A stretch of DNA of 38,918 nt from a bacterium HR16 (lineage in GTDB: Bacteria; Armatimonadota; HRBIN16). A program made the position numbers and the translations under genes. Below are positions 4,019-38,914 of the stretch, one piece after another. The notes under the pieces are model-generated. The model did no database searches. It was not told the DNA's origin and saw only the letters and a list, made by a program, of their open reading frames with translations. Within the stretch, counting starts at the first letter, position 1. Each line of letters begins with the position of its first letter. The DNA lies in NCBI GenBank assembly GCA_002898895.1, contig BEHS01000004.1, positions 1 to 38,918 of the forward strand, written 5' to 3'.

Positions 4019-5028
4019 GACGACCTCCCTCTCTTTTGCTGGATAAGTACGGCGATGGTGATGATGATGCCCTGAATGACCATACGCGGCGCGAGCTCCA
4101 CCGCGTTCAGACTGAGGATTTTATTGATGTACGCCATGATGAGCACGCCGATGAGGGTGAACATCATGCCACCGCGTCCGCCCATCAGGCTGGTACCTCC
4201 GATAACCACCGCGGCGATGGCGTCCAGCTCGTAGGTCATACCCGCCTCGGTATCACCCAGATCCTGCCGACAGGCGTTCAGCACCCCTGCCATCGCGGCG
4301 AACATACTGCACAGCGCGTAGGTCAGCACCTTTACCGCGCCCACACGGATACCGCTGAGCCGCGCCGCCTCCTCGTTGCCTCCGATGGCGTAGAGCCACC
4401 TGCCGTAGGAGGTATAGCGTACCAGCGCTGCCATCACCAGAATACAAAACAGAAAAATCAGCGTGGAGGGCTGGACGCCGATGCCCGGTAATGCGGAGGT
4501 CATCCACAGGAAGAAAGGCGGCGTGCCCTCCTGCATGGCGTACCAGGGCTGCCCACCCGGCTGCACCTTAATGCCCCCTGCAATCAGCTTCGCTGCACCG
4601 CGCGCAGCGGTCATCATCGCCAACGTCGCCACAAACGGCTGCATCTTGAAACGGGCGATGAGACTGCCGTTGACCAGCCCACATGCCAGCCCCGTTAGCA
4701 ACACTGCGCCGATGGCGGGCGCAACCCCCCAGCCGTAACCGATGGTGAGCAGAGAAAAAAGCACCGCGCTCAGCCCCAGCACCGAACCGACCGACAGGTC
4801 AATCCCGCCGGTCAGGATAACCAGCGTCATGCCAGTCGCCAGTAAGCCGTACTCGGAGTACTCATACAGGATGGCGAGTTGCGTTTGCCATGACAGGAAT
4901 ATCGGCAGACCCGTATCCAGTGCACGCGGGCTGAAGATGATTCCCAGCACGAAAACCACCACGAGCGCGATGACGCCGCGATAGTCGTTCAGTTTCTCCA
5001 GAAGGCGGTGCAGTTTGCCTCTGTCCAT
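4015..5028 (-). CDS. Sugar ABC transporter permease (RbsC-like)
   Basis: A 337-residue inner-membrane permease of the RbsC/BPD_transp_2 family, with about 8-10 hydrophobic segments. It has the family signatures LTGGIDLSVGSVLGLSA (residues about 70-86), YAIGGNEEAARLSGIRVGAVK (about 215-235) and a late AAVVIGGTSLMGGRGG loop. The start is an ATG preceded by AAGGA. It is first in a two-gene unit with the lipoprotein gene and divergent from the barrel protein at 5194. It is distantly similar to the second permease at 25168-26115, but the two are not close copies. Without the ATPase gene the transporter is incomplete in this window. Confidence 0.9.
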   Translation of the reverse strand: MDRGKLHRLLEKLNDYRGVIALVVVFVLGIIFSPRALDTGLPIFLSWQTQLAILYEYSEYGLLATGMTLVILTGGIDLSVGSVLGLSAVLFSLLTIGYGWGVAPAIGAVLLTGLACGLVNGSLIARFKMQPFVATLAMMTAARGAAKLIAGGIKVQPGGQPWYAMQEGTPPFFLWMTSALPGIGVQPSTLIFLFCILVMAALVRYTSYGRWLYAIGGNEEAARLSGIRVGAVKVLTYALCSMFAAMAGVLNACRQDLGDTEAGMTYELDAIAAVVIGGTSLMGGRGGMMFTLIGVLIMAYINKILSLNAVELAPRMVIQGIIITIAVLIQQKRGRSS

Positions 5029-33427: not shown

Positions 33428-34669
33428 ATGTGGCGGCGGGTAGTGGTGACCGGCATGGGCGCCATTACCCCGTTGGGCTTGGGCGTTCCTTCCTTCTGGG
33501 AGGGACTGAAAAGCGGACGCAACGGGGTGGCGACCATTACCTCGTTTGACCCTTCTGGACAGCCGGTGCGTTTCGCGGCGGAAGTCAAAGGCTTCAACCC
33601 CGAAAACTATATCGAGCGCAAGGAAGCGCGTCGTATGGACCGCTTCACGCAGTTTGCCATCGCGGCGACCAAAGAGGCGCTGGCAAGCTCGGGGCTGGAA
33701 ATCACCGACGAAAACCGCGCACGCATTGGCACACTGATTGCCAGCGGCATCGGTGGACTACAGACTTTGGAGGAACAGCATAAAGTGTTCCTCGAGCGCG
33801 GTCCTGACCGGGTGAGTCCTTTCCTTATCCCCATGATGATTGCGAACATGGCATCAGGACAGGTTGCCATTCAGTTCGGGTTGCAGGGCCCCTGTACAAC
33901 AGTGGTGACCGCCTGCGCAGCGGGCACGAACGCGGTCGGTGATGCGTGGGAGATCATTCGACGTGGCGACGCCGATGTCATGATCGCAGGAGGCACCGAG
34001 GCGGCGATTACCGCCCTTGCGCTCGCCAGCTTTGCCAACGCCCGCGCGCTCTCCACCCGCAACGACGACCCCGAGCACGCCAGTCGTCCCTTCGATGCCG
34101 AGCGGGATGGCTTCGTGATGGGTGAAGGCGCAGGCGTGCTGGTGCTGGAGGAGCTGGAACACGCTTTGCAACGCGGTGCTCCCATTCTGGCGGAAATCAC
34201 CGGCTACGCCATGACTGCCGACGCCTATCATATCACCGCTCCCGACCCGGAGGGCGACGGCGCAAAGCGTGTGATGGAGCTGGCAATGCGCAAGGCAGGT
34301 ATCGCCCCCGACGAGGTAGACTACATTAACGCACATGGCACCTCTACCCCCGCCAACGACCGGCTGGAAACGCTGGCTATCAAACGTGCCTTCGGTGACC
34401 ACGCCTACCGACTGGCTATCAGCTCTACTAAGTCCATGACAGGACACCTGCTGGGCGCAGCAGGGGCAATTGAAGCCATCGCAACGGTGCTTGCCATCCA
34501 GCACCAGATTGCCCCGCCGACCATCAACTATCAGGTTCCCGACCCGGAGTGCGACCTGGACTACGTGCCGAACGAGGCACGCCCGATGAGGATAGACGTT
34601 GCCCTATCTAACTCCTTCGGTTTCGGTGGGCACAACGCCACGCTGGTGTTCAGGCGCTGGGAGGGCTAA
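33428..34669 (+). CDS. fabF: Beta-ketoacyl-ACP synthase II
   Basis: Elongates acyl chains. I start it at the ATG at 33428, with GGTGG 5 nt upstream, giving 413 residues beginning [17 protein letters not shown]; a GTG at 33419 would add three residues. The catalytic triad is Cys163 (TACAAGTNA), His303 (NAHGTSTP) and His340 (SMTGHLLG). The C-terminal [15 protein letters not shown] motif is present. It is the last gene of the fatty-acid cluster; the URO-D-like gene begins 1 nt after its stop. Confidence 0.95.
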
Positions 34670-34670
34670 A

Positions 34671-35741
34671 ATGGGTGAACTCACCACGCATGAGCGCGTC
34701 AAGCGGATGTACGAACACCGTGAGGCAGACCGCGTGCCCATTACCGACAGTCCCTGGGGAGCAACCATCGAGCGCTGGCATCGAGAGGGCATGCCCGAAG
34801 AGGCTGACTTTGCGGAGTTTTTCGGTCTGGACCGCTTCGCCTATATCGGTGTGGACAACAGCCCGCGTTATCCGGGAAGGGTAGTGGAGGAAACGGAGGA
34901 GTACATCATCACCACCTCGCCCTGGGGCGTGACGATGAAGAACTGGAAGCATCGGGGAGGCGTGCCGGAGTTCCTCGATTTCACCATCGTAGACCGCGAC
35001 AGCTGGCAGGAAGCGAAGGCACGCATGACCCCCACACCCGACCGCATCCCCTGGGACACCCTTCGGCAAAACTACCGTCGCTGGCGCGAAGAGGGTTACT
35101 GGATCAGCGCAGGATTGTGGTTCGGCTTCGACGTCACCCACTCGTGGGTGGTGGGCACAGAGCGCGTGTTAATGGCGATGGTGGAGGACCCCGAATGGCT
35201 GGTGGACATGTTCCATCATTTTCTGGATGTGAATCTCGCACTGCTGGATATGATATGGGAGGCAGGTTACACCTTTGACGAGGTAACCTGGCCTGACGAT
35301 ATGGGCTACAAAGGGCATCAGTTCTTTTCCTTGAAAACCTACCGCGACCTGCTGAAACCCGCTCACAAACGAGCCTGCGAGTGGGCACAGGCGCACGGGG
35401 TATATGTACGCCTTCATTCCTGCGGCGACGTGCGTCCGTTCATCTCCGAGTTTATCGAAATCGGCGTGCAGATGCTTAACCCGATCGAGGTGAAGGCGGG
35501 CATGGAACCGACCGCCCTCAAACGGCAATACGGGGACAGGCTGGGCTTTCACGGCGGGTTGAACGCAGTGCTATTTTACGATATGGACGCCATGTTCGCG
35601 GAGATGGAGCGCGTCATCCCAGTGATGAAGCAGGGTGGCGGCTACATCATCAGCTCCGACCACTCCGTGCCCGACAGCGTGAGTCTCGATCAGTTCCGCG
35701 CCTTTGTGCAGAAGGCGAAAGCGCTTGGAAGGTATGACTAG
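34671..35741 (+). CDS. URO-D superfamily protein, not true HemE
   Basis: A 356-residue (beta/alpha)8 protein of the uroporphyrinogen-decarboxylase superfamily. It starts at the ATG 1 nt after fabF. It has the superfamily core with GYKGHQFFSLKTYRDLLKPAHKR, YVRLHSCGDVRPFISEFIEIG, MLNPIEVKAGME and FHGGLNA. The HXC pair in LHSCGD resembles the zinc site of MtaA-type corrinoid methyltransferases. It lacks the N-terminal Arg-rich substrate motif of HemE. Such proteins are common in several environmental phyla with unknown substrates; methyl transfer is possible but not shown. Its stop overlaps that of the convergent endonuclease gene. Confidence 0.8.
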   Translation: MGELTTHERVKRMYEHREADRVPITDSPWGATIERWHREGMPEEADFAEFFGLDRFAYIGVDNSPRYPGRVVEETEEYIITTSPWGVTMKNWKHRGGVPEFLDFTIVDRDSWQEAKARMTPTPDRIPWDTLRQNYRRWREEGYWISAGLWFGFDVTHSWVVGTERVLMAMVEDPEWLVDMFHHFLDVNLALLDMIWEAGYTFDEVTWPDDMGYKGHQFFSLKTYRDLLKPAHKRACEWAQAHGVYVRLHSCGDVRPFISEFIEIGVQMLNPIEVKAGMEPTALKRQYGDRLGFHGGLNAVLFYDMDAMFAEMERVIPVMKQGGGYIISSDHSVPDSVSLDQFRAFVQKAKALGRYD

Positions 35742-36589
35742 ATGACCAGGTCAAACGGCAGGTCGCTGATGTCACGAAGCCTTCGCCCGTCTACAAGTGT
35801 GCGAAGCATATCCGCTTGATCGTGATTTTTCACGGCATCAACCGCTTCTTGCAGTTCCGGTAACGCGATGTGATACACACAATCGATGTCTCCTGTTCCC
35901 AATGCCAGCGCCGCAAGACGTGTGGGCATAGGCTCCGCAGTAACCGCAACGATGCGAGGCGTATGTCCTTTTCGATTACGGATGATGTTCAGCGCTTCAG
36001 TGCGCGTATTCTGCGCACGGTCACTACGGATAGTCCATTTGCAGGAAACAATTGCGTGCAGGATGTAGCCATCGTAGTTCACCCGGCGAGCAGGAGTCAG
36101 CCGAGCCGGTAAACGCTCTTCTGCGAACAGAGAGCCCTCAGAGTCGAAGAAGGCATCCTCTTCACTGTATCGGGCAACGATAACGTCCGGCTTGACCAGG
36201 TACTCGGTACCCAGTATCGTTTTAAGGTCCGCGTCTCGCTTCGCCAAGTCGTCCAGACGCGACAGGTGTTCATACTGATAGTACCGGGAGATGCGTCCGC
36301 CCGTCTCGAACCGCCACGTGCCTGGTCGAGCGCGCAGGAGTGTTGTGAACGTCTTCTCTATGAACCGTCTGGTAATTTCTTGGAACTGCGCTCCTATCTC
36401 TTGAGGCGTCAGGCGCGGTGCGGTCGGAGGTTCTGGCAGACGTTTGGCGAGTTCCCTGCCGATGCTCACACTGCTCGGTGAATCCTTATCTGACCAGTTG
36501 GGAACCCCGTGCTTATCCACAAACAAGAGAACCCTGCATATTTCAGCAAGATAGTCCTCTCGAAAGTTTGGAACGTGTTCACCTCTCAC
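35738..36589 (-). CDS. Type II restriction endonuclease, NgoMIV family
   Basis: A 283-residue endonuclease close in length to NgoMIV (about 286), a tetrameric enzyme that cuts at GCCGGC. Its predicted active site is Asp135 (VKPDVIV), Ser182-Cys183-Lys184 (VSCKW) and Glu198. Lys to Glu spacing is 14 residues, the same as in NgoMIV (Lys187, Glu201 from memory). The base-reading segment RSDR (188-191) also has the same spacing from the lysine. Glu71 may be the extra active-site acid. The C-terminal GTGDIDCVYHIALPEL block fits. The recognition site is thus probably GCCGGC or another CCGG-core site. The gene overlaps the methyltransferase gene by 4 bp (ATGA). Confidence 0.85.
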   Translation of the reverse strand: MRGEHVPNFREDYLAEICRVLLFVDKHGVPNWSDKDSPSSVSIGRELAKRLPEPPTAPRLTPQEIGAQFQEITRRFIEKTFTTLLRARPGTWRFETGGRISRYYQYEHLSRLDDLAKRDADLKTILGTEYLVKPDVIVARYSEEDAFFDSEGSLFAEERLPARLTPARRVNYDGYILHAIVSCKWTIRSDRAQNTRTEALNIIRNRKGHTPRIVAVTAEPMPTRLAALALGTGDIDCVYHIALPELQEAVDAVKNHDQADMLRTLVDGRRLRDISDLPFDLVI

Positions 36590-37923
36590 TTGACCAACCC
36601 GATGACGTATTCCTGATGCATCCGTTGCTCTATAGTACTACCGTTACCGGCATGACGGCTGGCAGGCATCATGCGTCGGTCGCGGTGAATGCGTCGGGTA
36701 CCCACTCCTGCTACACGGAAACCCACCGCCTGAGCAACCTCACCCAGACAGAAGTCAGCGCGAGTATCTACCCCTTTCAGCCTCGAGCTGGCAACAACAA
36801 ACACCGCGCAGCGCCCCGGCTGCAGCACACGATAGGCTTCACGCATGACCTGCGTCATGTCCTGATAATACCCCTCCAGTACCTTCGCCTTGCGAGCATC
36901 CAGCTTGCCCACCATGTCAACCACTTGCTGCACCGGTTTCGGCAGTGATATGCCGTTCCCATACTGCAACACCTCGTGCCCCACGTACTCTTTTCTTCGG
37001 AGGGAAAGAGCATCAACAGGATAGCCAAACCATACCAGGGAGAACTTGTGGGCACGCATGTAATCGATCGCGTTTGCGGCGTAGGGAGGTGAAGTCACGA
37101 TAAGATGCACGCTGTTGTCACGTAGAGGGAGTGAACGAGCATCCGCGCACAGTACAGCCGCTCGTCCAGCACAACGACCTGCTTGCTCGATACTGGCGAC
37201 GTTTTTCCGTAGCCTCCTGGCAAACTCCTCGATAGCGGAGCGGGGAACCTTCCCCGCCACCTTATGGGGACGGGTGTGTGCCAGGTCCGTCGCCAGCGAT
37301 ACCCCCCCTGATTTGGTAACGATGATGCCGGAGAAGCACAGACGCAAGAACTGCCGTACCGCAGGACTTGGCTCCGCCTCTATCTGTAAGAGCAGAGCCA
37401 TCAGCTCTTGCTGGGTTTCCTGAGTGAACCAGTAGTCCAGAAACCGCCGCGTTCGGTCATCGAACCGATTCTGTATCTCCCGACACACAGCGGACCGGTC
37501 TCTTTCTAAGGCGAAATAGGCGCGATTGCACACGTTCAAACCAGACTGAAACGCTCGTGCGGGATCAGGAGGATCGGTCTTAACTTGAGAAAGCAGGAGC
37601 GCAAGCGGGTCTATATCGCTGCCAATCCCGTATCTCTCCATCCGTGTGGCTTCCAAAAGGGTTGTGCCGGAGCCGACCATTGGGTCAAGTACTACCTCGC
37701 CGGGCTGGGTCAGGTGCTGAATGAAGAGGCGGGGCAATGCAGGGGGGTACTTCGCAGGAAAGGCGTGCAGGTTGTGTATACCGGTGTTGTCGGAATCTTG
37801 AGCGAAATCCAGATCCCCTTCCAGAAGTTCGCTTAACACGCTGTCCAGAGATGATTCGACAAAACCCGAATAGGCGCTCTTGTCGATATGTTGGTCGATG
37901 ACCAGCTGACCTCGTTGCGTCAT
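36586..37923 (-). CDS. DNA methyltransferase with TSPPY motif (N4-cytosine type)
   Basis: A 445-residue amino-methyltransferase that should protect host DNA from the partner endonuclease. The SAM-binding motif I is DPMVGSGTT (residues 80-88). The catalytic motif IV is TSPPY (277-281), a form typical of N4-cytosine enzymes. The two are about 190 residues apart, with the target-recognition part presumably in between, so the order is I then IV. An HNLHAFPAKYPP block precedes motif I. The ATG has AAAGGAC upstream. It is the first gene of the pair, so methylation would precede cutting. C5-cytosine motifs are absent, unlike the M protein of the original NgoMIV system as I recall it. Confidence 0.88.
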   Translation of the reverse strand: MTQRGQLVIDQHIDKSAYSGFVESSLDSVLSELLEGDLDFAQDSDNTGIHNLHAFPAKYPPALPRLFIQHLTQPGEVVLDPMVGSGTTLLEATRMERYGIGSDIDPLALLLSQVKTDPPDPARAFQSGLNVCNRAYFALERDRSAVCREIQNRFDDRTRRFLDYWFTQETQQELMALLLQIEAEPSPAVRQFLRLCFSGIIVTKSGGVSLATDLAHTRPHKVAGKVPRSAIEEFARRLRKNVASIEQAGRCAGRAAVLCADARSLPLRDNSVHLIVTSPPYAANAIDYMRAHKFSLVWFGYPVDALSLRRKEYVGHEVLQYGNGISLPKPVQQVVDMVGKLDARKAKVLEGYYQDMTQVMREAYRVLQPGRCAVFVVASSRLKGVDTRADFCLGEVAQAVGFRVAGVGTRRIHRDRRMMPASRHAGNGSTIEQRMHQEYVIGLVK

Positions 37924-37972: not shown

Positions 37973-38914
37973 TCACGACTGGGCAGGCGCGGTTGGGGCT
38001 ACTGTTGAAATCTCTCGGACAGATGCCTCTGCAGAAAGCGACTCGGCGGAAAGTAACACCAGCACAATCCATATCACGTCCGACAACAGCAGATGTATCA
38101 GCTGCATCCACACAGGAGCTTTTAACACCACGTTCGTCGCGCCGGCAATCAACTGAAGCACATACAACATCATTAACATCATCACAAAGCGGGCGACCAG
38201 AGTGCGGGGACGATGGTTCAGCACCCAAATACCGGCCATAGAGAGATAAACTCCTGCCAGCACCGCGATAACAGGATGAATCGGACGGAGGGCAACCAGC
38301 GTACGCACCAGCGGGGACTGCTCGGGACCGATGCCCAGCCCGAGCGTCAGCGTGTCGCCCAGCGCGATCACCGCACCTGTCATGCCTGTTACCAGCGTTG
38401 CTACCACTCCGCCTGCCAGCACCTGCAGTAGCCTGCCCTGTCCGCGCAGACGGAACCCCGCTCCACCGGACGCCCACCACGCGGTGAGCGTCAGCGCGGC
38501 TAACAGCAGGAAGGTATTCGCCAGATGTACCGCCATCGATATCGCCCGCGCGACCGACGTGTCGCGCGCTACCCACTCGAAGAGCACCAACCCTGCGCCC
38601 ACCAGAGCCTCGGTCACGATGAAAAGCAGCGACAGCGACGCGCCGAGACGCACGATATGCCTGCGGGGATATGCACGAAACGCCCAGATGAACATCACCA
38701 GCACCGCCAGCAGTGCCAGTCCGCTCGTGGCGCGATGGGTGAACTCGATGAGCATTTCCACCGACCGGGGGCGCGGGATCACCTCACCGTTGCAGGTGGG
38801 CCAGTGACTGCCGCAGCCTGCGCCACTGCCCGTCGCCCGCACATACGCTCCCCACAGGATAACCGCCACGTTATACGCCAATACTCCCCAGCTGAATCGG
38901 GCTAATCGGTTCAT
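37973..38914 (-). CDS. ctaA: Heme A synthase
   Basis: Oxidises heme O to heme A for cytochrome oxidases, in the inner membrane. It has 313 residues with eight hydrophobic segments. It carries the loop YVRATGSGAGCGSHWPTCNG with the Cys34/Cys41 pair, then EFTHR with Glu57 and His60. Further membrane histidines occur at His130 (AVHLAN) and in RPIHPVIAV and MQLIHLLLSD. The start at 38914 is only 4 bases from the window edge, so upstream signals and a possible longer start cannot be judged. It lies 49 nt upstream of the restriction-modification pair on the same strand. Its oxidase partners must be outside the window. Confidence 0.92.
   Translation of the reverse strand: MNRLARFSWGVLAYNVAVILWGAYVRATGSGAGCGSHWPTCNGEVIPRPRSVEMLIEFTHRATSGLALLAVLVMFIWAFRAYPRRHIVRLGASLSLLFIVTEALVGAGLVLFEWVARDTSVARAISMAVHLANTFLLLAALTLTAWWASGGAGFRLRGQGRLLQVLAGGVVATLVTGMTGAVIALGDTLTLGLGIGPEQSPLVRTLVALRPIHPVIAVLAGVYLSMAGIWVLNHRPRTLVARFVMMLMMLYVLQLIAGATNVVLKAPVWMQLIHLLLSDVIWIVLVLLSAESLSAEASVREISTVAPTAPAQS

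Follow-up and report, generated by a model that had tools for sequence, protein, structure and literature searches.

An NgoMIV-family endonuclease paired with a predicted N4-cytosine methyltransferase in bacterium HR16

The closest known system to the locus reported here is the NgoMIV/NgoAIV system of Neisseria gonorrhoeae, which targets GCCGGC, has adjoining endonuclease and methyltransferase genes and is listed as a 5mC system (PMC6789123). In NgoMIV, the inner CCGG is read by an R-(D/E)R motif (R191, D193 and R194) and the outer G:C pairs by D34, Q63, S192 and R227 (PMC4652773), while E70 is a water-mediated metal ligand (PMC6344858). That one target can be modified through either chemistry in different lineages is known from the CGATCG enzymes of cyanobacteria, isospecific methyltransferases that make 5mC or m4C, although these concern another target and other enzymes and are mostly solitary methyltransferases (PMC4390886). 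For GCCGGC itself, SMRT sequencing of Sinorhizobium meliloti gave one m4C motif at a methylation frequency of about 6%, too low for us to accept it as a comparable system (PMC11711589), and the Thioflexothrix site is predicted only, as m5C (PMC5578853). Among the papers that we searched, none describes an NgoMIV-family enzyme with an m4C partner.

We analyzed a 38,918-nucleotide stretch of the bacterium HR16 genome (the window; its genome is G000, other G-handles are compared genomes and L-handles compared loci). An initial annotation had proposed an endonuclease next to an amino-methyltransferase at 35738-37923, and both open reading frames lie there on the minus strand, as R and M, between two flanking genes:

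34599-35741, plus strand: left flank, URO-D family gene, convergent to R, its stop overlapping the R end; insertion boundary
35738-36589, minus strand: R gene, 283 aa, GTG start; NgoMIV-family type II endonuclease
36586-36589, minus strand: GTGA, the 4 bases in which the stop of M and the start of R overlap, from sequence
36586-37923, minus strand: M gene, 445 aa, ATG start; DNA amino-methyltransferase
37973-38914, minus strand: right flank, COX15/CtaA gene, codirectional with M and 49 bp upstream of it; other boundary

From the GTGA overlap, M and R are expected to share one transcript with coupled translation. We consider it likely that the two genes form one system, in which an NgoMIV-family R would recognize GCCGGC and M would protect the same site by N4-methylcytosine, in place of the usual C5 partner; this would be a type II restriction-modification system, probably of class IIF. 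As in NgoMIV, a tetramer of R would engage two sites and cut them at G/CCGGC, and M would methylate a cytosine of GCCGGC on its exocyclic amino group and thereby protect the host. The family assignments and motifs, as read from the two proteins, are far beyond chance; the exact target, the N4 chemistry and the activity of R and M are what we infer from sequence.

R matches PF09015 (NgoMIV_restric, Pfam) over 261 residues at E=5.3e-93, spanning positions 12-275 of the 275-position profile, and the NgoMIV structure 1FIU at E=3e-61, with an identity of about 41%. The NgoMIV catalytic and base-reading spacing recognized in the initial annotation holds in this comparison, given that S-C-K184, R188-S-D-R191 and E198, the glutamate 14 residues after the lysine, correspond to NgoMIV K187, R191-S192-D193-R194 and E201. 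In NgoMIV numbering, R keeps the whole active site (D140, K187 and E201, a permuted PD...K...E) together with D34, Q63, R191, S192, D193, R194 and R227. Because every published NgoMIV base-reading residue is conserved, GCCGGC, cut as G/CCGGC, is the expected target of R.

M was said to be an amino-methyltransferase and not a C5 enzyme, and this is borne out by its match to N6_N4_Mtase (Pfam), with SAM motif I DPMVGSGTT at residues 80-88 and catalytic motif IV TSPPY at residues 277-281; an FPAKYPP motif is also present in the N-terminal part. The best matches in a PDB profile search include the N4-cytosine enzymes 8s9n and PvuII, and adenine enzymes follow. An AlphaFold model of M has a class I methyltransferase fold (pTM 0.84), and a fold search with it returned generic class I methyltransferases only (Trm11, Dam), a result that fits N4-cytosine and N6-adenine enzymes alike. 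Since GCCGGC contains no adenine, an amino-methyltransferase that protects it should yield N4-methylcytosine, and the adenine-free predicted site and the motifs together make this very probably the product of M.

Methyltransferases of the wider M family accompany EcoRII-C endonucleases in congeners (L041, L045 and L048) and, on plasmids, MvaI/BcnI endonucleases (L130 and L131); M.MvaI, M.BcnI and M.PspGI are N4-cytosine enzymes. The methyltransferases of these loci share the motif order of M at 21-28% identity, but their endonucleases are different, with EcoRII-C belonging to the wider CCGG fold family. All NgoMIV-linked amino-methyltransferases form one clade on a single side of a 100/100 branch, and the partners of the sister clade are EcoRII-C and MvaI/BcnI endonucleases; the sister clade has TTVAYGQFSRLSLQWLG, whereas the NgoMIV-linked clade of the window has NAIDYMRAHKFSLVWFG. 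In the proposed system, the usual C5 partner of NgoMIV enzymes would have given way to an N4-type enzyme whose family elsewhere works with CCNGG-core endonucleases. In the congeners, the EcoRII-C-type endonuclease genes (L041 2598-3467, L045 533-1432 and L048) adjoin genes for methyltransferases about 30% identical to M, and the genus thereby holds another restriction-modification family related to this one.

Endonucleases of the NgoMIV family are present in 12 of 291 genomes of the own phylum, with an amino partner in five (G000, G183, G185, G187 and G209) and a C5 partner in the other seven. Amino partners were also found in two Chloroflexota MAGs (L002 and L004) and on viral contigs L105 and L106; they are thus known in congeners, in another family of the same phylum and beyond, and this recurrence shows that the linkage of M and R is not accidental. 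Across 52 homologs of R at 90% non-redundancy, from own-phylum and other genomes, plasmids and viral contigs (a sample biased by the query and the collections), 46 have a C5 or C5-like partner and six an amino partner. The view that the classical NgoMIV system uses C5 methylation therefore agrees both with the gonococcal system (PMC6789123) and with most homologs. Pairing with an amino enzyme is the less frequent form of this known defense system, but one that recurs. R is a plain member of its family, and alternation of amino and C5 methylation at one target is already known; the uncommon part is the combination of the two enzymes. The C5 partners are of at least two types, C5a and C5b. Just beyond a class 1 integron on the Pseudomonas aeruginosa plasmid pNOR-2000 (L015) lies another NgoMIV-family endonuclease gene (4028-4837) with no methyltransferase within 4 kb, and its partner has possibly been lost.

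With the methyltransferase type mapped onto the R tree, a single 98/96 clade contains endonucleases with amino, C5a and C5b partners in mixed order. The C5 types swap as well, and the best trees require 3-4 changes for the amino rows. This is in line with the partner exchange around a CCGG core that had been suggested from the sequence. One amino row, the G209 endonuclease (L030, 1465-2199), is a very divergent NgoMIV homolog on a long branch, in which D34 and Q63 are not conserved and the specificity may have changed; when it is left out, the amino rows sit in the 98/96 clade with C5a and C5b rows. On this evidence, partners have indeed been exchanged, the window being one case among several, and the direction of the swap was presumably from C5 to amino. 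Somewhat short of an even chance, in our view, is a history that would be compatible with the mechanism proposed above, in which all amino-NgoMIV systems descend from one ancient pairing event and were later passed around intact. The tree test does not reject a single origin (p-AU 0.14 when L030 is included and 0.21 without its very long branch), and the NgoMIV-linked amino-methyltransferases fall on a single side of the 100/100 branch, but the interleaving with C5a and C5b rows and the number of changes on the best trees argue for repeated exchange.

The surroundings of the locus differ among congeners. The URO-D and CtaA genes adjoin each other without the M-R system in G184, G180 and G179, with only a few bases between the gene ends in G184, and the pair lies beside CtaA in G000, G187, G183 and G185; inspection of the locus by eye showed no mobile-element hallmark or target duplication. 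In G183 (L035) R is frameshifted at residue 247 and in G185 (L036) it has an internal deletion of about 180 residues, with M intact in both. Judged by these reading frames, R is lost and M retained in the two genomes, where M is becoming an orphan methyltransferase. The window and its congeners also have Gln in place of NgoMIV Glu70, a difference from NgoMIV on which the initial annotation was silent and which could lower the activity of R. Close M relatives (about 50% identity) with no NgoMIV endonuclease nearby occur in G208 (L037) and G209 (L055, G209:C57), the latter genome hence holding a second, unlinked copy. All of this would fit a decaying system in the window too, with R inactive through E70Q and M an orphan with another role. 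We find such decay improbable, given that R in the window has its full length and evolves under purifying selection similar to that on the flanking CtaA gene, as on a housekeeping gene (dN/dS 0.11-0.16 versus G187), and that position 70 varies in other full-length homologs (T in L003 and L026, A in L027), Glu70 being common in the family but not strictly defining.

It is very improbable that R and M have different targets, with M an N6-adenine or other-site enzyme placed there by chance and the host protected from R by, for example, a C5 enzyme encoded elsewhere: an SPPY motif does not strictly prove N4 chemistry, and G000 does have a C5 methyltransferase away from the M-R locus (G000:C173, 37% identical to the C5b type), but the two genes overlap by four bases, the phylum has homologous pairs in five genomes, with further ones in two Chloroflexota MAGs and on viral contigs, the NgoMIV-linked methyltransferases are confined to one side of the 100/100 branch, and G187, with an intact R and 98% completeness, has no C5 methyltransferase match.

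One published idea is that m4C takes the place of 5mC at temperatures at which 5mC becomes mutagenic (summarized in PMC8557920). The suggestion that the host is possibly a thermophile stands in part: the 16S G+C of the genus (about 61%) and an IVYWREL index over 112,000 residues (about 59 °C, compared with 36 °C for the E. coli control) make a roughly moderate thermophile plausible, but not proven. Estimates from small proteome samples of other genomes were too noisy and were dropped. Replacement of C5 partners by m4C enzymes related to those of CCNGG-core systems may have happened more than once and, in warm-growing lineages, may spare GCCGGC the mutational cost of 5mC deamination, an account that we regard as rather unlikely as a whole. 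A strict rule of no 5mC in the genus fails, because G000, G183 and G184 each hold one C5 methyltransferase; C5 matches are absent in seven of ten congeners, and amino-methyltransferase matches number 6-22 per genome. Vsr or HhH-GPD glycosylase genes lie near 10 of 46 C5 systems and one of six amino systems, a difference that is not significant. Having both C5 and amino partners of one endonuclease family in one phylum offers a natural experiment on heat-driven replacement of 5mC by m4C, and it cautions that methylation chemistry is not assignable from the endonuclease family alone.

Each C5 methyltransferase gene of the genus adjoins a gene for an HhH-GPD (MutY/MIG-like) glycosylase (L296 1456-3002, L297 1255-3164 and L298 731-2406), as if for repair of 5mC deamination, and the G183 glycosylase is similar to MutY and to 1kea, a G:T mismatch enzyme from a thermophile.

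Avoidance of GCCGGC was rejected as a sign of active restriction. In sampled sequence (435 kb of G000 and 400 kb each of G183 and G184), the observed/expected ratio is 0.51 in G000 with its intact R, 0.53 with the frameshifted R and 0.52 in the congener without a system at the site; restriction leaves no visible genome signature, as GCCGGC is no rarer in G000 than in these congeners. GGCC is almost absent from the same three genomes (0.08-0.10), a far stronger avoidance than for GCCGGC, which suggests a GGCC restriction system long resident in the genus.
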